23,515 nucleotides of DNA, taken from positions 1 to 23,515 of the IMG/VR virus record IMGVR_UViG_3300020437_000420; one strand, given 5' to 3'. A program made the position numbers and the translations under genes. The notes beneath the pieces were generated by a model that made no database searches, was not told the DNA's origin, and saw only the letters and a list, made by a program, of their open reading frames with translations. How positions within the stretch are numbered: the stretch's first letter is position 1; each line of letters begins with the position of its first letter. Below are positions 6,573-15,011 of this stretch, piece by piece. This DNA is from a virus.

Positions 6573-7347
6573 TGCTGAAGAAAATCAAGAACCTGTACCT
6601 GAAAACATTACACAAGACCCTCAACCAGAACCACAACCTATAGAGGCAGATGTTCCACGTGAAACAATTTCAAAAGAAAGGCCAGAAAATGTGCCTGAAA
6701 AATTTTGGAATGCAGAAACAGGAGAGATACGCACAGATGAATTATTAAAATCAAATGAGCATTTAGAGAAGTTTGTTGGAGGAAAAAAAGACGAACTACG
6801 TGATGAAATTATTAATGAATTATCGGAAGAAGCAGAATCAGAAGTACCTGAAGAATATGCTTTACCTGCACTTCCAGAAACTATTACAGAACAAGATGTG
6901 GTTGAAAATCCATTGTTTGATTGGTGGAAAGATCATTGTGTAAATAATGCGTATAACCAAGAAATGTTTGAAGATGGTATTAATAAATTCATTACTGCAC
7001 AAGGTCATTATCAACCAAATTTAGATGATGAAGTAAGTAAACTAGGTGAAAATGCACAACTGCGTATAGATGCAGTAGATGCTTTTGCACAAAGTCATTT
7101 TGGTGCTGATGATTATGAATATTTACAAACAACATTAGGACAATCTGCAAGAGGTATTGAAATATTAGAAAGAGTTATGGATATGCAAAAACAAAATATT
7201 TCAAGACAACAATCAGAACCAATGAATAAATTATCATTAGAAGATGTCAGAAGTATGATGAAAGATCCTCGTTACTTTGATCCTAAAGAAAGAGATGAAT
7301 CGTTTGTAAGACAAGTAGATGATGCGTTTCAGAGATTATACAGATAA
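6562..7347 (+). CDS. Scaffolding (capsid assembly) protein
   Basis: This acidic, Pro/Glu/Gln-rich protein (261 residues) guides capsid assembly and leaves the prohead before or during packaging. Residues 1-40 are low-complexity and acidic. Residues 41-71 contain PENVPEKFWNAETGEI and a following helix, a conserved opening motif in podoviral scaffolds. The C-terminal region LSLEDVRSMMKDPRY (224-238) with a final helix ending AFQRLYR is the usual capsid-binding helical tail. A strong AAGGAG lies ahead of ATG 6562. Position between the portal and capsid genes supports the call. Confidence 0.9.
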   Translation: MSDNAEENQEPVPENITQDPQPEPQPIEADVPRETISKERPENVPEKFWNAETGEIRTDELLKSNEHLEKFVGGKKDELRDEIINELSEEAESEVPEEYALPALPETITEQDVVENPLFDWWKDHCVNNAYNQEMFEDGINKFITAQGHYQPNLDDEVSKLGENAQLRIDAVDAFAQSHFGADDYEYLQTTLGQSARGIEILERVMDMQKQNISRQQSEPMNKLSLEDVRSMMKDPRYFDPKERDESFVRQVDDAFQRLYR

Positions 7348-7883
7348 TGTATATGGATATAGCAATCCCTGATGATTGCTTTGAACTTGCACCTAAAATA
7401 AAACAAACAGATAAGTTTGAATTAGCTGTTATGGGTAAAGACCCTTTATGGACTTTACTCTATCCTTTTCGTATCAATAGACCTAATGTTCATACTTTTG
7501 GTGTATATCAAGATGATGGTACAATAGAAGCAATGTTTGGTTGTTGTTCATCAATGGATAACGAAAAAAAAGGTACGGCGTGGTGGTTAAGCACAGAAGA
7601 ACCTTTTGCTAATTATAGGTATATGCGACATCAAAAAAGAGTGTTTACTTGGTTGGCAAGTCATTATTCTTACTTGTGGAATGTAGCAACAGAAGAACAA
7701 GAAAAAACATTACGTTGGGTTAAATATATGGGTTTTACAATTTCTGATAGACCCCTACTTGTCAAACGTGTAAAAATGAAGTATTTTTATATAGAACCGA
7801 AAGGTTTTAATGGTGAACCCATAGATGATGTGTGTGGCCCACGTTGGAGAACCCTTAATCAGAATTCTACGGACAATTCATAA
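7347..7883 (+). CDS. T7 gp13-like (GNAT-like) protein
   Basis: The protein (178 residues) has the pattern of the T7 gp13/DUF2833-like group, which resembles acetyltransferase folds: HTFGVYQDDGTIEAMFGC (beta strands), GTAWWLSTEEPF, a helix RHQKRVFTWLASHY, and NVATEEQEKTLRWVKYMGF at about residues 113-131, the typical end of a GNAT-like fold. In T7, gp13 is needed for internal virion protein assembly and is encoded next to gp14, after the tail genes. Here the gene lies between scaffold and capsid. Whether it binds acetyl-CoA is unclear. ATG 7347 shares a base with the scaffold stop; ATG 7353 is an alternative start, and neither has a strong ribosome site. Confidence 0.75.
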   Translation: MYMDIAIPDDCFELAPKIKQTDKFELAVMGKDPLWTLLYPFRINRPNVHTFGVYQDDGTIEAMFGCCSSMDNEKKGTAWWLSTEEPFANYRYMRHQKRVFTWLASHYSYLWNVATEEQEKTLRWVKYMGFTISDRPLLVKRVKMKYFYIEPKGFNGEPIDDVCGPRWRTLNQNSTDNS

Positions 7884-7913
7884 ACTGTAATATTAACTAA
7901 ATAGGAGATAGGA

Positions 7914-8738
7914 ATGGCAACTTCCATTACTACTGCCTTTATTAAGCAGTTTGAATCTGAAGTACATATGGCATACCAACGTATGGGTTCTAAACTGAGA
8001 AATACAGTAAGACAGCTTAATAATGTAAAAGGCAACCAAGCGAGATTCCAGAAAGTGGGCAAAGGGTCTGCGACTGAAAAGTCAAGACACGCTAATGTTC
8101 CAACTATGGAAGTAACGCACAATACAGTTGACGTAACTCTATCTGATTTCTATGCGGCAGATTATGTTGATAGATTAGATGAGTTGAAAACTAACATTGA
8201 TGAAAGACAAGTGCTTTCTCAATCAGCGGCGGCGGCATTAGGTAGAAAAACAGATCAACTTATTGTTGATGTACTTGATGCAGGGTCTAATAGTAACAAC
8301 GTAGCACACGGGTCTGCGGCATTAACACTTGCTAAAGCCCTAACAGTTTACGAAGCATTTGGTGAAGCAGATGTGCCTGATGATGGTCAGAGATACTTTG
8401 TTGTATCTTCTGCAGGTTGGGCTGATTTATTACAAATAGATCAGTTTTCAAGAGCAGAGTACATTGGTGAAAAAGAACTTCCATATGCGGGTGGTATGAC
8501 GGCTAAGAGATGGTTAGGATTTTTATGGTTCTCATTCTCTGGTTTATCACTCTCTGGTACAACTAGAGATTGCCACGCTTGGCACAGATCATCAGTTGGT
8601 CTTGCTATGGGTTCTGACATCAGAACTGAAGTAAACTATATTCCTGAAAAGGTCAGTAATCTAATCACTTCATATATGTCTATGGGTGCTGTGATGATTG
8701 ACAATGATGGTGCTATAGAATGTCAAATAACAGAATAG
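7914..8738 (+). CDS. Major capsid protein (Phage_capsid_2-like)
   Basis: The protein of 274 residues starts TAFIKQFESEVHMAYQRMGS (7-26) and continues KLRNTVRQ, with LGRKTDQLIVDVLDAG at 109-124 and a Trp-rich core near residues 168-225. This is the pattern of the podoviral capsid group called Phage_capsid_2, which takes the HK97 fold. It builds the icosahedral shell. A good AGGAGA lies eight bases upstream of ATG. Codons are somewhat richer in GC than in the surrounding genes (GCGGCGGCGGCA, for example), as expected for a highly expressed product. It follows the scaffold/gp13-like genes and precedes a small decoration-like gene and a GC-rich hairpin. Confidence 0.93.
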   Translation: MATSITTAFIKQFESEVHMAYQRMGSKLRNTVRQLNNVKGNQARFQKVGKGSATEKSRHANVPTMEVTHNTVDVTLSDFYAADYVDRLDELKTNIDERQVLSQSAAAALGRKTDQLIVDVLDAGSNSNNVAHGSAALTLAKALTVYEAFGEADVPDDGQRYFVVSSAGWADLLQIDQFSRAEYIGEKELPYAGGMTAKRWLGFLWFSFSGLSLSGTTRDCHAWHRSSVGLAMGSDIRTEVNYIPEKVSNLITSYMSMGAVMIDNDGAIECQITE

Positions 8739-8748
8739 GAGAAAACTA

Positions 8749-8997
8749 ATGGCTTTTACTCAAGCAAACTTAAAAAAGATTGCAGGTGGTGGAGATCAGA
8801 ATGTTTATCTCTACAACTCTGCAGATGCTGTAGGTACTATTGCAGGATCTGGATATTTTAACAATGCTACCAATCAGCTTAAACAGAATGATGTAATCAT
8901 TGCTGTTGGGTCTACAGGTGGCACAAGAACAGTAGATGTCCTTGTTGTATCAAGTGCAACAGCGGCGGCTACAGTTACTTGTATTAATGGTACATAG
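8749..8997 (+). CDS. Putative capsid decoration protein (82 aa)
   Basis: The small beta-rich protein reads NLKKIAGGGDQNVYLYNSAD, then AGSGYFNNATNQLKQNDVII and a Thr/Val/Ala-rich end. Proteins with this layout (a short N-terminal segment, a YFNxAxxxLxxxD phrase and a hydrophobic strand) frequently follow capsid genes in phages, and are usually called head or decoration proteins. That is family knowledge by resemblance, without structural proof here. AGGAGA ten bases downstream of the capsid stop is its ribosome site. It shares the more GC-rich codon style of the capsid gene, and is followed by the hairpin at 9000-9025. Confidence 0.7.
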   Translation: MAFTQANLKKIAGGGDQNVYLYNSADAVGTIAGSGYFNNATNQLKQNDVIIAVGSTGGTRTVDVLVVSSATAAATVTCINGT

Positions 8998-8999
8998 GG

Positions 9000-9025
9000 T
9001 ATTGGGGGAGGCGACTCCCCCGATA
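9000..9025 (+). terminator. Strong hairpin after the capsid genes, T7 Tphi-like position
   Basis: GGGGGAG (9004-9010) pairs perfectly with CTCCCCC (9015-9021) around a GCGA tetraloop of the GNRA class. TATT/GATA flanks extend the stem to 11 pairs with one wobble. Only TTT follows, so as an intrinsic terminator it would be leaky, which suits a partial stop that lowers tail-gene expression below capsid level. T7 has its major terminator at the same point, after gene 10. It may instead act as an mRNA stabiliser or processing site. Confidence 0.7.
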
Positions 9026-9033
9026 TTTAGATT

Positions 9034-9651
9034 ATGGTAAGTAAAATAGATATATGTAATCAAGGATTAGTTTTAATTGGAGCAAACACTATTGCTTCTT
9101 TTACTGACAATACAACAGAAAGTAAGGTTGCTAATCAACTTTATGAAACAACATTGCGTTCTATGTTAACAAAAGCTAGATGGAGATTTGCTTCTAAACA
9201 AGCACAACTTTCAAAACTTGCAACCGATCCTTTAGATAAATGGGATTCTGCATACCAAATACCTAATGATGCAATATTAATACACACACTTACAGTTTCG
9301 GATAATGTTATTGTATTTGATAGATACAACGAAGAATTATTTACAAACACAAGTACTAACGATATTGTTGTTTGTCATTACACATATCAACCACACGAAG
9401 CAGAATTACCAGACTATTTTGTACAAGCCCTTGTATTTGAACTTGCTAGTTTATTTGCAGGTGCAATAGCAAGAAATGATAATTTGTCTACACTATATCA
9501 AAGACGTGCTCAACAACAATTATTACTAGCACGTAGTACAGAATCACAAACACAAACTACAAGAAAATTGAACACAAGTTTACTTATAGAAGTAAGAAAT
9601 AGAGGAACTGCAGATGGTATTAGAGCAGTTGTACCAAGTAGCAGTAGTTAA
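9034..9651 (+). CDS. Tail tubular protein A (T7 gp11-like adaptor)
   Basis: This 205-residue protein forms the ring between portal and tail nozzle. The start KIDICNQGLVLIGANTIASF, then ANQLYETTLRSMLTKARWRF (residues about 33-52) and a late helix PDYFVQALVFELASLFAGAI are typical of T7 gp11 and P22 gp4-type adaptors. An in-frame TAG three codons... at 9028 fixes the start at ATG 9034 or later. No Shine-Dalgarno sequence lies in the usual place; the only GGAGG upstream is locked inside the hairpin stem. The next gene, tail tubular protein B, starts four bases after its stop. Confidence 0.9.
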   Translation: MVSKIDICNQGLVLIGANTIASFTDNTTESKVANQLYETTLRSMLTKARWRFASKQAQLSKLATDPLDKWDSAYQIPNDAILIHTLTVSDNVIVFDRYNEELFTNTSTNDIVVCHYTYQPHEAELPDYFVQALVFELASLFAGAIARNDNLSTLYQRRAQQQLLLARSTESQTQTTRKLNTSLLIEVRNRGTADGIRAVVPSSSS

Positions 9652-9654
9652 TGA

Positions 9655-12111
9655 ATGGCAATACAACGTGTACACCAAAACAGTTTTACTCGTGGAGAAG
9701 TTGATGAAACTGTTATATCACGAACTGATATAGCCGCATTTCAGCAATCACTTAAAAAAGCTAGAAATGTTTTTGTTTTAAATCAGGGCCCTGTTGAAAG
9801 ACGACAAGGAACTTTGTTTAGATATGATTTAGGTGAATCTACTAGAATAGAACCATTTATATTTAATGAAAATCAAGAATATATAATTGCATTTCAAAAT
9901 ACTAAATGTAAAATTTTTTCTACTAATGGTACATTATTGCAAAGTTTTACAAGCTGTGCGTGGACTACAAGTAATCTATTTGAACTTACTTATACGCAAC
10001 AAGCGGATACAATGATAATTACTCACAATGATTTTAAACCCAAAATAATTACACGAACAGGAGCAACAACATTTACTATTACAGATTTTGCATTTAAAGA
10101 AAGTACAAATCAAGACCAAGTGTATCAACCATATTTTAAATTTGCTGAAGATTCTATTACACTAGATATTGACCAAACAACAGCACAAACAGGTGTAACC
10201 TGTACAACAAGTGCAGATTACTTTTCAGCAACTATGGTAGGAACACGTATACGTTATCACGAATCTGAATTATTAATTACTGCCTATACCAATCCAACAA
10301 CAGTAACAGCTACATTAAAAAAAGATGTAAGAATAGAATTAGATGATGACCCTTTAAAAAGTGAAGAAGGAAGTGGTACAGTTACAGTATTGCATCCTGC
10401 ACACGGCTTTGCAAATGGTGCTAGTGTAACTATAGAAGGTGCAGAGTCTATACTTAATGAAGATGGTAATGGATTGGCGGCAGGTAATTTAAATGGCACA
10501 TTTACTATAGCTGTATTAGATGACGATAGATATACCTATACAGCGGGTTCAAGTGATACAGGAGGAGATTCAGCAGATGGAGGAGGTACTAATGTAAGAA
10601 TTATAGGACACCCACCAACAAAACAATGGGATGAGCAAGTGTATAGTGATTACAATGGTTATCCTACTACGTGTAAATTTCATCAACAAAGATTATTTTT
10701 TGCAGGCGGTGCAATAAGTGATTTTGTTGCCGGTAGCAAAACAGCAGATTTTTTTAATTTTGATGTTGGAGCAGGTGAGGATACAGACTCTATACAGATT
10801 GCTATATCGTCTGATCAAATTAATGAAATACGACATTTAGTATCTGGTAAACATTTAGAAATATTTACAAGTACAGGTGAGTTTTATCTCAAACCACAAG
10901 TAGGTAGACCACTTACACCATCAGATTTAAAATTAGAAAGACAATCTAGTTTAGGTGCTACCCAAAAATGTATGCCACGATTGTTTGATGGTGCGGCAAT
11001 ATTTGTACAACCTAATGGCAAAACAGTAAGAGAGTTTTTTTACAATACAGCAACAGAAGATTATGTTCCAACTGTATTAACATTTTTATCACCACAAGCA
11101 GTTAATGACCCTACAGATACAGGTATTATAAAATCAACAGGTGCAAAAACAGAACAGTTTATTTTATTTGCAAATAGTGATGGTTCATTAGGTGTATTTT
11201 CTGCACAAAGACAAGAAAAACTAGCAGGGTGGGTAATATGGCAAACAGATGGTAGTTTTTTATCTACAGCAGGTATTACTTCATTTTTGTATACTGTTGT
11301 TAAAAGAACAGTAAATGGTGCAGATAAATATTATTTAGAACAAATATCTAATTCGCAATTTGCATTACCCACAGATTGTTCAGTAAGTAAAATATTATCG
11401 GGATCATATCAGCCACACGGCACAGTATTAGTAAATGGTGCTGTAACGTCAAGTAGACAACTTACACTAGATGGGTTTACCAATGCACCAACAACAGGAG
11501 AAAAGTTTAAGATTGGTGGTGCATCTACAGAATATATAATACAAAGTGCAAATGCTACAGGAACTTCTGGTGAATATATAGTTGTTATTGATCAAACAGT
11601 TTCCGCATCTGATAATGCTACAATAGAATTTACAACAAGTCGTGTGTTTACAGGACTTAATACTAACCCTGATTTACGTGGAAAAATTGTACACGCTACA
11701 TCTGGATCTGATGAAGAAGATGATATACGATACTATGGTTCAGGAACAGTATCGTCAGGAGGGGTAGTTAATTTTCAATTACCGGCAAGTGCGTGTGATA
11801 TAGGATTAAACTATACAGTTGAAATAGAAACATTACCTATTGATTCTGTTCAACCAATAAGAGGTTTAGGATCTACATATGGTTATCCTCGTAAAATAGG
11901 TAAAACTATATTAGAATTATCTAAAACATATAATTTACAAGTAAATACTAATGATGTATTGCTTAATGATAATGGATTACAAATGGTAGGATATACAGGA
12001 AAAAAAGATATACATACATTAGGTTATACACAAACACCTTTTGTTTCTATAACACAAACTGTGCCTGTGCCTTTTAGAATATTGGCTATAACTTCGGAGG
12101 TATATTTCTAA
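9655..12111 (+). CDS. Tail tubular protein B (T7 gp12-like nozzle)
   Basis: The 818-residue product (T7 gp12: 794) forms the nozzle at the end of the short tail. The N-terminal QNSFTRGEVDETVISRTDIA and the RNVFVLNQGPVERRQGT phrase (37-53), and HQQRLFFAGG (343-352), are family landmarks. Residues about 238-316 look like an inserted beta domain: HPAHGFANGASVTIEGAE, then LNGTFTIAVLDDDRYTYTAG, ending in a Gly/Ser/Asp loop. Inserts of this kind decorate the nozzle in other phages. The start is ATG 9655; another ATG at 9651 overlaps the previous stop but is in the wrong frame. GGAGG near the 3' end serves the next gene. Confidence 0.93.
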   Translation: MAIQRVHQNSFTRGEVDETVISRTDIAAFQQSLKKARNVFVLNQGPVERRQGTLFRYDLGESTRIEPFIFNENQEYIIAFQNTKCKIFSTNGTLLQSFTSCAWTTSNLFELTYTQQADTMIITHNDFKPKIITRTGATTFTITDFAFKESTNQDQVYQPYFKFAEDSITLDIDQTTAQTGVTCTTSADYFSATMVGTRIRYHESELLITAYTNPTTVTATLKKDVRIELDDDPLKSEEGSGTVTVLHPAHGFANGASVTIEGAESILNEDGNGLAAGNLNGTFTIAVLDDDRYTYTAGSSDTGGDSADGGGTNVRIIGHPPTKQWDEQVYSDYNGYPTTCKFHQQRLFFAGGAISDFVAGSKTADFFNFDVGAGEDTDSIQIAISSDQINEIRHLVSGKHLEIFTSTGEFYLKPQVGRPLTPSDLKLERQSSLGATQKCMPRLFDGAAIFVQPNGKTVREFFYNTATEDYVPTVLTFLSPQAVNDPTDTGIIKSTGAKTEQFILFANSDGSLGVFSAQRQEKLAGWVIWQTDGSFLSTAGITSFLYTVVKRTVNGADKYYLEQISNSQFALPTDCSVSKILSGSYQPHGTVLVNGAVTSSRQLTLDGFTNAPTTGEKFKIGGASTEYIIQSANATGTSGEYIVVIDQTVSASDNATIEFTTSRVFTGLNTNPDLRGKIVHATSGSDEEDDIRYYGSGTVSSGGVVNFQLPASACDIGLNYTVEIETLPIDSVQPIRGLGSTYGYPRKIGKTILELSKTYNLQVNTNDVLLNDNGLQMVGYTGKKDIHTLGYTQTPFVSITQTVPVPFRILAITSEVYF

Positions 12112-12605: not shown

Positions 12606-15011
12606 ATGGCAGAACGATATAAACCAAAAGTAGACTATGTATCTCAAATAGCGGTACAACAACCCTTTGGAGCACAAAAGGTTGCACGAGCATTTGAAGT
12701 TGCACAAAGAGAACAAGAACAAGCAAATGAGGTATTATTTAAAGGTGCTGAATCATTAGGTCGTGCTGTTGAAAAAGTTAAAACTAAAAAAGATATAGAA
12801 AATTTTACAGTAGATTTTGAAACTATAGATAAGGTAGATGCACAGGGTAATGAGTATACAATAGAACGCCCAAAACCTATGAAAAACAAAGTGTTTTTCT
12901 TTCAAGAAAATCGTCAACAATATGAAAAATTTGCGGCACTAAAAACAAAACAAGAAATTTCACGAAGTTTGCAACAACAAGCAGGAGATATAAAAAGACG
13001 GGTACAAACAGAGTTTGGTAATAATCCGCAAGAGTTTATAGCACAAATGCAACCGGTATTAGAAACAATTAAAGAAGCCTTGCCACCAAAATTTTATAAT
13101 TTATTAGAAGGTGATATAGATGATATATACGCACAAAATGTTACTAGTATTGAAAATTCATTTGCTCAAGAACAACAACGAGCACAAAATGCAGAATATG
13201 AAGATTATATGGATGTAACATCAAATACTCTTATATCTCATTTAAATAATAATAAGTTAGATACAGCTAAATATTTAATTAATGAAATAGAAGAATCTGG
13301 TATTGATTGGAAACAAACAAGTAGTAGTGCTCGTATTGGACATAATACTAACATACAATCACTTAAAGATACTGTAGGTTTTTATGAAAAATATGGTAGC
13401 TATTTGCCCGGACTTTCAATAGCTGATCAAACACCAAATGGACAAGCAATTAATTTACATAATCTAAATTCTTTTAAAGCATTAATAGATGGTGTAGGTG
13501 ATGTAAAATTATTTAGTAGAAAAAACAATATTGATACTCCAGATGTTACTATAACTTTAGATCAATTTAATAATGATTTTGCACTTAATAGTAAAAGTCG
13601 TACTGCTTTACGAACAGCAATAACACGTAGAATATCTATGTTAGATACAGAAACATCTACAGATAATTTACAAAATAAGTTAGTTAGATTAGATAGTTAT
13701 ATAAATGGCACAGAACAAGAAAAAGGTGGAACGAGTATTGAATTTATTTCTTTAATTAATTCTTTAGTAAATAGTACAAAGCCAGAAGAACGACAGGCGG
13801 CATTTGCTATATTTGCACGCAATCCAAAATATGGAATAACAGGAGGCAATGAGTTTGATGCTAATAATGTATCACATTATTCTATTCCTATATTGCATCA
13901 ATATGCTTCTGGTAAATTAAAAACTGTTATTGAAAATAAAATATTTAGTAAAGATACAAAATTTCTAAATGATTTATTACGTCTTACTGTAGCCAATCAA
14001 TATGGTAAAACTTTTAATGTTCATCATTTAGATGTATCACCTGCAACAGAAAGATATTTAAAATATTTAAGTTCTATTTATATTGCACGACCTTTAGAAG
14101 ATGCAGATTTGGCAGATATATCGCAGTTTGAAGCAATAGAAAGAGATCAAGAACGTGATCCTACTAAAACAAGTCAAAAATTAAAAGATTTAAATACAGG
14201 CATTGACAATGCTATTGAAAATAATTTTGAATTTGGTTTGTTTTCATTAAATCCAACTAATTGGTTTTATGGAAACAAATATCAACACGTAGATCCTACT
14301 ATAAAAGAATACCTACGAAGCAGAATAACAAATAACATTCATTTTTTAGATTTAGACAAAGGAGATGTTACAGAAGATGCAGACCTTATAATACAAAATT
14401 TAGCAGAAAAGGGAATAATAGGTACAAGCGAACTTAATACTGCAGGAAAAACAAAAGGTGAAACAGCAACATTATTAGATCGTGCTAAAGATAATGAATT
14501 AGCTGATGTTGTTATGTATCCTATTGAAAATTTTGCTATTGTTAATCCTAACACAGGCAAAAGAGATACTAAATTTATTGAAGCAATGATTTATAAAAAA
14601 TTTTTAGAATCTGATTGGAATGCAGAAAGAACAACACCTGCACCAAAATATAAAAAAGGATTTATATTTGTTACTCCTGTAGTTGCAGATGGTAGAGCAC
14701 CAATTAGAGATGTTGCACAAATGGAATATACAATTAAATTTTTTGATGGCACAGATTTTAGAGAATTAAAAAAAAATGGCGAAACAATTTATTTAAAACC
14801 TCTTAATGAATTACAAGATGCGTATAAGTTTGATAGTTCAAAAGGGCGAACTCGTAATTTAATAAAAGAAATTAGTGAAGAAACAAGGTATCAAACAGAA
14901 GTTAATGGAGAAAAAGGATATAAACAAATATTAAGTGATTTAAATTTAGTTGATGATGAAGAAGCATTTATAAAATATTTTAATGAATATACAAAAGACA
15001 TACCTGAATAA
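12606..15011 (+). CDS. Internal virion protein, T7 gp15-like (801 aa)
   Basis: The length (T7 gp15: 747) and position between the gp14-like and gp16-like genes indicate the middle ejection protein, which in T7 forms part of the periplasmic channel. I see no enzymatic motif. The N-terminal 60 residues (PFGAQKVARAFEVAQREQEQ onward) are helical and charged. The middle is Asn/Leu-rich alpha-helical. There is no signal peptide or membrane span, as expected for a protein packed in the head. Sequence alone would not identify it; the assignment rests on gene order and size. No ribosome site precedes ATG 12606, three bases after the previous stop. Confidence 0.75.
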   Translation: MAERYKPKVDYVSQIAVQQPFGAQKVARAFEVAQREQEQANEVLFKGAESLGRAVEKVKTKKDIENFTVDFETIDKVDAQGNEYTIERPKPMKNKVFFFQENRQQYEKFAALKTKQEISRSLQQQAGDIKRRVQTEFGNNPQEFIAQMQPVLETIKEALPPKFYNLLEGDIDDIYAQNVTSIENSFAQEQQRAQNAEYEDYMDVTSNTLISHLNNNKLDTAKYLINEIEESGIDWKQTSSSARIGHNTNIQSLKDTVGFYEKYGSYLPGLSIADQTPNGQAINLHNLNSFKALIDGVGDVKLFSRKNNIDTPDVTITLDQFNNDFALNSKSRTALRTAITRRISMLDTETSTDNLQNKLVRLDSYINGTEQEKGGTSIEFISLINSLVNSTKPEERQAAFAIFARNPKYGITGGNEFDANNVSHYSIPILHQYASGKLKTVIENKIFSKDTKFLNDLLRLTVANQYGKTFNVHHLDVSPATERYLKYLSSIYIARPLEDADLADISQFEAIERDQERDPTKTSQKLKDLNTGIDNAIENNFEFGLFSLNPTNWFYGNKYQHVDPTIKEYLRSRITNNIHFLDLDKGDVTEDADLIIQNLAEKGIIGTSELNTAGKTKGETATLLDRAKDNELADVVMYPIENFAIVNPNTGKRDTKFIEAMIYKKFLESDWNAERTTPAPKYKKGFIFVTPVVADGRAPIRDVAQMEYTIKFFDGTDFRELKKNGETIYLKPLNELQDAYKFDSSKGRTRNLIKEISEETRYQTEVNGEKGYKQILSDLNLVDDEEAFIKYFNEYTKDIPE

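Follow-up and report, generated by a model that had tools for sequence, protein, structure and literature searches.

A conserved hairpin lacking a U-tract between the capsid and tail genes of a probable pelagiphage as a candidate mRNA decay barrier

In a 23,515-base IMG/VR virus record (the whole stretch of DNA analysed here, hereafter the window), a stable hairpin without a U-tract was found between the capsid block and the tail tubular protein A (TTA) gene. Judging from sequence comparisons, we give close to an even chance to the reading that this hairpin is a 3'-boundary element of the capsid mRNA, which would act as a barrier to mRNA decay and lower tail expression, and its role may be to let a single transcript give plenty of capsid but little tail protein. 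The window is probably a pelagiphage fragment, because its capsid-to-TTA region shares 72% DNA identity with Pelagibacter phage EXVC031P Hodr. Its genes are ordered as terminase, portal (PF12236), capsid-assembly-like, internal virion protein, capsid (PF19821), an 82-aa gene, TTA and TTB. On the plus strand, the major capsid protein gene (7914-8738; Pfam PF19821 3.8e-74; phrog_3437) is followed by the small 82-aa gene, to which no function is assigned (8749-8997; phrog_18004 6.2e-14), and by the TTA gene (9034-9651; phrog_394 5.3e-38), which is homologous to annotated TTA genes by tblastn. A preliminary description of this DNA had placed the hairpin at the capsid/tail boundary; it does precede TTA, but the 82-aa gene intervenes on the other side, and the hairpin follows a block made of the capsid gene and the small gene.

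The core of the hairpin (9004-9021, plus strand) pairs GGGGGAG (9004-9010) with CTCCCCC (9015-9021) in seven perfect pairs, six of them G-C, around the GNRA loop GCGA (9011-9014), just as the preliminary description had it, and this core is kept in the 14 sequences of an alignment of the closest relatives (A1). The stem extends via TATT/GATA, including one G-U pair, to 9000-9025 (TATTGGGGGAG-GCGA-CTCCCCCGATA), and three further G-U pairs bring it to its full extent at 8997-9028, with 14 pairs and a free energy of -21.6 kcal/mol. In a scan of the plus strand, no other simple hairpin of the window was as stable, the next best reaching -13.0 kcal/mol (a gap of 8.6 kcal/mol), and 80 dinucleotide shuffles of the window all fell short of its energy on that strand (best -18.8, median -13.8 kcal/mol). 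The 76-nt region around it gave a folding z of -3.66, with 0/200 shuffles as low. An Rfam search of the window returned no family at gathering score. Between the core stem and the TTA start lies an AU-rich linker (9022-9033) with neither a U-tract nor an SD.

The hairpin was sought in relatives by a clade scan with the window's capsid, from which the best 80 IMG/VR loci were kept, and by four more capsid scans (HTVC010P, best 80; MEP301, best 80; a Vibrio phage, 2; a human-faeces phage, best 80). Adding the window and phage records with annotation brought the total to 336 loci, of which 318 contained both capsid and TTA; the other 18 were left out, 15 having no TTA match and 3 a truncated capsid gene. 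The 318 loci are not independent, as they include close relatives within clades and HTVC010P twice (L084 and L096). All 318 have a hairpin with at least 6 pairs, at least 4 of them G-C, in the capsid-TTA interval (small genes included), and in 311 a hairpin of -8 kcal/mol or lower lies between capsid and TTA outside reading frames of at least 50 codons; the seven loci without one are L297, L298, L304, L221, L248, L250 and L257. In the window's clade, such a hairpin was present outside reading frames in 81/81 loci. When the gap regions of the clade were shuffled 200 times each, no shuffle was as good in 66/81 loci and at most 2 were in 78/81, with 9 in the worst case. Among 12 further named phages of our choosing, T7 included, 10 have a hairpin, and no gap hairpin was found in Escherichia phage vB_EcoM_APEC (L346) or ctHz2215 (L345).

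The hairpin lies directly 3' of the capsid gene in HTVC024P, Greip and the Vibrio phages, and 3' of capsid plus a second gene in the window, HTVC034P, Skadi-1 and MEP301. The core stem is 8-23 nt from the TTA start across the clade, and the distances to both flanking genes are variable. Because the hairpin ends the capsid block regardless of its content and at variable distances, a 3'-end role fits better than a role in TTA initiation. In 21/81 clade loci, the plus-strand scan found a more stable hairpin elsewhere in the locus, several within TTA and the rest upstream of capsid. A second hairpin was observed within the TTA coding sequence (codons ~131-143, peptide LVFELAS) in L018 (4019-4052), L002 (2155-2180 of the Hodr record), L064 and L070; in 32/72 clade loci, no more than 2 out of 100 synonymous shuffles match its folding, and in the window itself, where 19/100 do, this hairpin is not evident.

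Compensatory changes in the hairpins behind the capsid genes of relatives, for which the preliminary description had proposed a search, were found in a subgroup alignment (A2) of 21 sequences, 20 of them distinct, hand-picked from the 81 clade loci. Two identical sequences in it (L039 and L067) are misaligned in the 3' arm and were counted unaltered. The flanks in A2 are similar while the stems change in step, and 96.9% of the cells are paired. Of five measures, the covariation was 0.650 against 0.194 in shuffles (0/500 as high; slid controls at most 0.291), and two-sided change was seen in 36 cells against 9.2 in shuffles. The two weaker measures gave 6/8 pairs with two-sided change against 4.0 in shuffles (10/500 as high) and 14 further pair types against 12.2 (84/500 as high). 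The case for covariation rests on A2 and not on A1, in which the closest 14 sequences (12 distinct) hold one covarying pair, A-U to U-A, in 4/12 distinct rows, 8/11 pairs are invariant, and 4/12 rows do not pair at the two positions below the G-C core. From these alignments, the pairing of the hairpin looks selected.

Folding is better on the plus than on the minus strand in 72/81 clade loci, 69/69 HTVC010P-type, 79/79 MEP301-like, 55/77 faecal-phage-like and 2/4 Vibrio loci, and the minus strand folds better in 19/77 faecal-phage-like and 2/4 Vibrio loci. Among 44 distinct clade hairpins, 10 carry a GNRA tetraloop on the plus strand, and in 2 the loop would be GNRA if read on the minus strand. 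Because of this folding bias and these loop counts, the hairpin in the window's clade most probably functions in the sense transcript, as RNA. That the palindrome arose by chance, or works at the DNA level, for example as an inverted repeat bound by a protein, is hardly credible: an inverted repeat in DNA would look alike, and the minus strand folds better in 9/81 clade loci, but the shuffles of the window, the covariation in A2, the plus-strand G-U pairs and the folding bias all speak against it.

The genes on the two sides of the hairpin differ in their ribosome sites. In the window, the capsid gene and the small gene have strong SDs (AGGAG at 7903-7907 and 8737-8741, -7.3 and -9.6 kcal/mol, respectively), whereas TTA has none (0.0 kcal/mol), which is the contrast expected if the upstream genes are better translated. 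Further starts in the window, for example that of TTB, are also SD-less. Across the window's clade, an SD of -6 kcal/mol or lower precedes capsid in 80/80 loci, the next gene in 81/81 and TTA in 2/81, the TTA SD being weaker in the other 79. Elsewhere the TTA SD is moderate, with medians of -5.1 to -6.8 kcal/mol in the other clades having more than one locus, a comparison that is not like-for-like for the HTVC010P-type phages, where a further gene sits between hairpin and TTA.

In the preliminary description, the stem was said to hold the only nearby GGAGG, TTA to have no other ribosome site, and the hairpin possibly to hold down tail translation by covering that site. As to the first two points, which stand, the GGAGG at 9007-9011, whose final G is the first loop base, has no other copy on either strand from 6783 to 10560, in a window that has 25 on both strands (22 on the plus strand) against 13.1 expected, and TTA lacks an SD of its own as given above. 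These facts, together with a stem that ends 12 nt (core), 8 nt (from 9025) or 5 nt (full extent) from the ATG, would suit a hairpin that hides the TTA ribosome site and lowers tail translation. However, a sequestered ribosome site should hold the SD at normal spacing inside the stem, and this GGAGG ends 22 nt ahead of the ATG at 9034. Moreover, GGAGG lies within the hairpin in 17/81 clade members, 22-37 nt from the TTA start; distances to the ATG are variable; and the hairpin is retained in L018 and L054 despite a separate SD-like stretch behind it (GAGGA or AAGGA, noted by eye). The stem GGAGG was thus discarded as a sequestered TTA ribosome site for its spacing and lack of conservation, and we regard this explanation as very unlikely. 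A stem this near the ATG may nevertheless hinder 30S binding without any SD role.

A similarly improbable alternative is that the hairpin folds the small-gene stop towards the TTA start, allowing ribosomes to reinitiate by translational coupling. With 9000-9025 folded, 10 unpaired bases separate stop and start in the window, whose other SD-less starts would also suit such a coupling. Against it, about 20 to 45 unpaired bases separate stop and start in several other subclades, and the extra gene in the HTVC010P-type phages stands between their hairpin and TTA.

The position of the hairpin matches that of the main terminator of T7, as had been pointed out in the preliminary description. In the T7 record NC_001604, promoter phi10, gene 10, Tphi (24210), gene 11 and gene 12 occur in this order, so that Tphi and the window hairpin share the gap between capsid (gene 10) and TTA (gene 11) on the late strand. 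However, the Tphi hairpin is followed by TTTTTTG, whereas the tail behind the window's stem is GATATTTAGATT, with no U-tract. The window hairpin therefore has the stable G+C-rich stem of a Rho-independent terminator (-21.6 kcal/mol, six G-C pairs) but not its U-tract, and a scan of the window for terminator-like sites, in which a T-run was demanded, gave nothing at 9000-9025. Related phages with homologous capsid genes, namely Vibrio phages 1.257.O, 1.138.O, 1.182.O and CKB-S2, Yersinia phage YeP5 and pelagiphage HTVC010P, also end the capsid block with a hairpin. Theirs has a U-tract and resembles an intrinsic terminator, which the hairpins of the window's clade mostly do not.

TTTT within 6 nt past the outermost G-C pair was found in 4/4 Vibrio, 33/69 HTVC010P-type, 3/7 Lederberg-like and 39/74 faecal-phage-like loci, and in 1/75 MEP301-like, 0/1 SI2 and 4/81 loci of the window's clade. 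In the MEP301-like phages, where the U-tract is thus mostly absent, TTA has an SD of -6 kcal/mol or lower in 55/79 loci, indicating that loss of the U-tract and loss of the SD do not coincide everywhere. The tail score of the window's clade was 2.45 against a background of 2.18, with 6/81 loci above the 95th percentile, and the stretch behind the stem held 3.23 T per 8 nt against 2.28 in the background, with at least 5 T in 8/81. In SAR11, the likely hosts, a control covering 400 kb from three genomes gave 21 hairpins behind genes, of which 14 are followed by TTTT, or 7/11 in co-directional gaps alone; convergent gaps were counted from each side, the 10 convergent hairpins representing fewer gaps. 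Some co-directional intergenic hairpins of SAR11 (L487, L485) are also without a U-tract, for example TGGGGGCGTTAGCCCCCA followed by AACATAAAC.

Tphi serves T7 RNA polymerase, a phage-encoded single-subunit enzyme. A search for a T7-type RNA polymerase (PF00940) found T7 and gave no match in the complete Hodr genome or in the window, which is a fragment. Among the best 14 hairpins and the best 6 tails per strand of complete Hodr, no intergenic hairpin has a strong U-tail, the best score (at 12825-12860) being 3.38. In the same listing of hairpins, the one behind capsid, at 2592-2623 of the Hodr record, ranks first on the late strand. The intergenic hairpin at 12825-12860 of Hodr (L083; -22.1 kcal/mol, tail TTACTTG) lies behind the first early gene and may be another boundary hairpin, in this case of the early strand. 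In GenBank OQ414635 and OQ414636 (L083 and L340), the locus tags are seemingly swapped, the Hodr record having EXVC032PBaldr tags and the Baldr record EXVC031PHodr tags.

These results bear on the suggestion of the preliminary description that the hairpin may reduce readthrough. A classical terminator finds no support, given the lack of a U-tract in the window, TTTT in only 4/81 clade loci, the silent terminator scan and the missing polymerase match in Hodr, but readthrough may be reduced by other means. Specifically, a leaky terminator corresponding to Tphi, with a poor U-tract or aided by helper proteins, would stop part of the polymerases behind the capsid genes. In its favour are the gap shared with Tphi and the TTTT at the equivalent site in the Vibrio, faecal-phage-like, HTVC010P-type and Lederberg-like groups; against it are the tail scores of the clade, the 14/21 SAR11 hairpins with TTTT, the scan and the polymerase search. 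Leaky termination is kept as the second explanation, and a serious possibility, because reported terminators include stem-loops that lack a distinct U-rich tract (PMC9045158); we rank a decay barrier somewhat more likely.

We put the decay barrier first because the window combines the elements of the differential-decay model presented for E. coli operons in PMC5927463, namely a block that is probably well loaded with ribosomes, a stable hairpin without a U-tract and a downstream gene lacking an SD. We infer a mechanism in which the host RNA polymerase would read a single long late operon spanning capsid and tail genes, and the hairpin would fold in the transcript 3' of the capsid and small genes and 5' of TTA. 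Strong ribosome sites would keep the capsid and small genes ribosome-loaded, and the SD-less TTA would be poorly loaded. An endonuclease would cut the poorly translated tail segment, and 3'-to-5' exonucleases would then halt at the hairpin, leaving long-lived capsid mRNA and short-lived tail mRNA and hence many capsid and few tail proteins. Either by decay or by leaky termination, a step down from capsid to tail is expected.

The observations counted for the decay barrier are the hairpins in all clade loci, the gap shuffles, the covariation in A2, the plus-strand bias, the place of the hairpin behind the capsid block whatever its content, the SD contrast, the TTTT frequency in the clade relative to SAR11, and the T7-type polymerase not found in Hodr. 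Counted against it are the terminator-like hairpins at the same site in relatives, which may mean that termination is the ancestral as well as the present role, the slight T-richness behind the stem, the weak enrichment of an RNase-E-like motif in the clade, and the stem-loops without a distinct U-rich tract among terminators in Clostridia (PMC9045158). The motif, RN|WUU, was found behind the stem in 24/40 distinct tails of the window's clade (shuffle mean 19.1, 14/300 as high) and 24/32 of the MEP301-like phages (shuffle mean 12.3, 0/300 as high), and lay under shuffle level in the HTVC010P-type (8/32) and faecal-phage-like (28/65) phages. It was not counted as support.

A more specific and rather unlikely reading is that cleavage immediately 3' of the hairpin yields both a protected 3' end of the capsid mRNA and a tail mRNA with a leader of ~8-12 nt and no SD, which would be read in a near-leaderless manner. 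If this were true, one conserved site would set both transcript dosage and initiation mode, and would have taken the place of an ancestral terminator and SD.

Like known mRNA-stabilising hairpins, the window hairpin is a stable stem behind an upstream gene, without a terminator U-tract. The malE-malF intercistronic hairpin, described in PMC5927463, and that of the Rhodobacter puf operon, known here from a title cited in PMC6238624, are likewise placed behind a gene needed in excess. Different from these, the window hairpin is in a phage, between capsid and tail genes, and is known from its sequence. A further point against the decay barrier is that, unlike the window hairpin, most of the protective structures (17/26) in PMC5927463 sat in the downstream coding sequence. 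In ABC importers of Clostridia, the internal terminators that set operon stoichiometry are likewise stem-loops placed 3' of the gene required in excess, and some of them have no distinct U-rich tract; according to PMC9045158, termination was shown there by reporters, a kind of evidence that sets them apart from the window hairpin.

Pelagiphages are among the most abundant marine phages, and we are aware of no explanation for how they come to produce capsid in large excess over tail protein. No publication on this hairpin was found in the literature searched, which mostly lacks subscription journals. Less expected than a U-less hairpin between genes at the position of Tphi are the two forms seen at one site in related phages of the same host, both recorded on Pelagibacter HTCC1062, with a U-tract in HTVC010P and without one in Skadi-1. 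A hairpin kept at one site across distant relatives, with or without a U-tract, would let termination and mRNA decay be separated. The Skadi-1 paper (PMC10504331) states that no terminators were found, although a strong hairpin follows the capsid block of this phage. Its U-less hairpin has a conserved inner GAGA loop. In a U-less subgroup of the HTVC010P-type phages (L089:3850-3889, L338:3334-3390), the loop GAAAGCGAGAGTGGAA is kept while the outer stem changes; this loop comprises a GAGA tetraloop and an A/G-rich internal loop and resembles a structured RNA or a protein-binding site.
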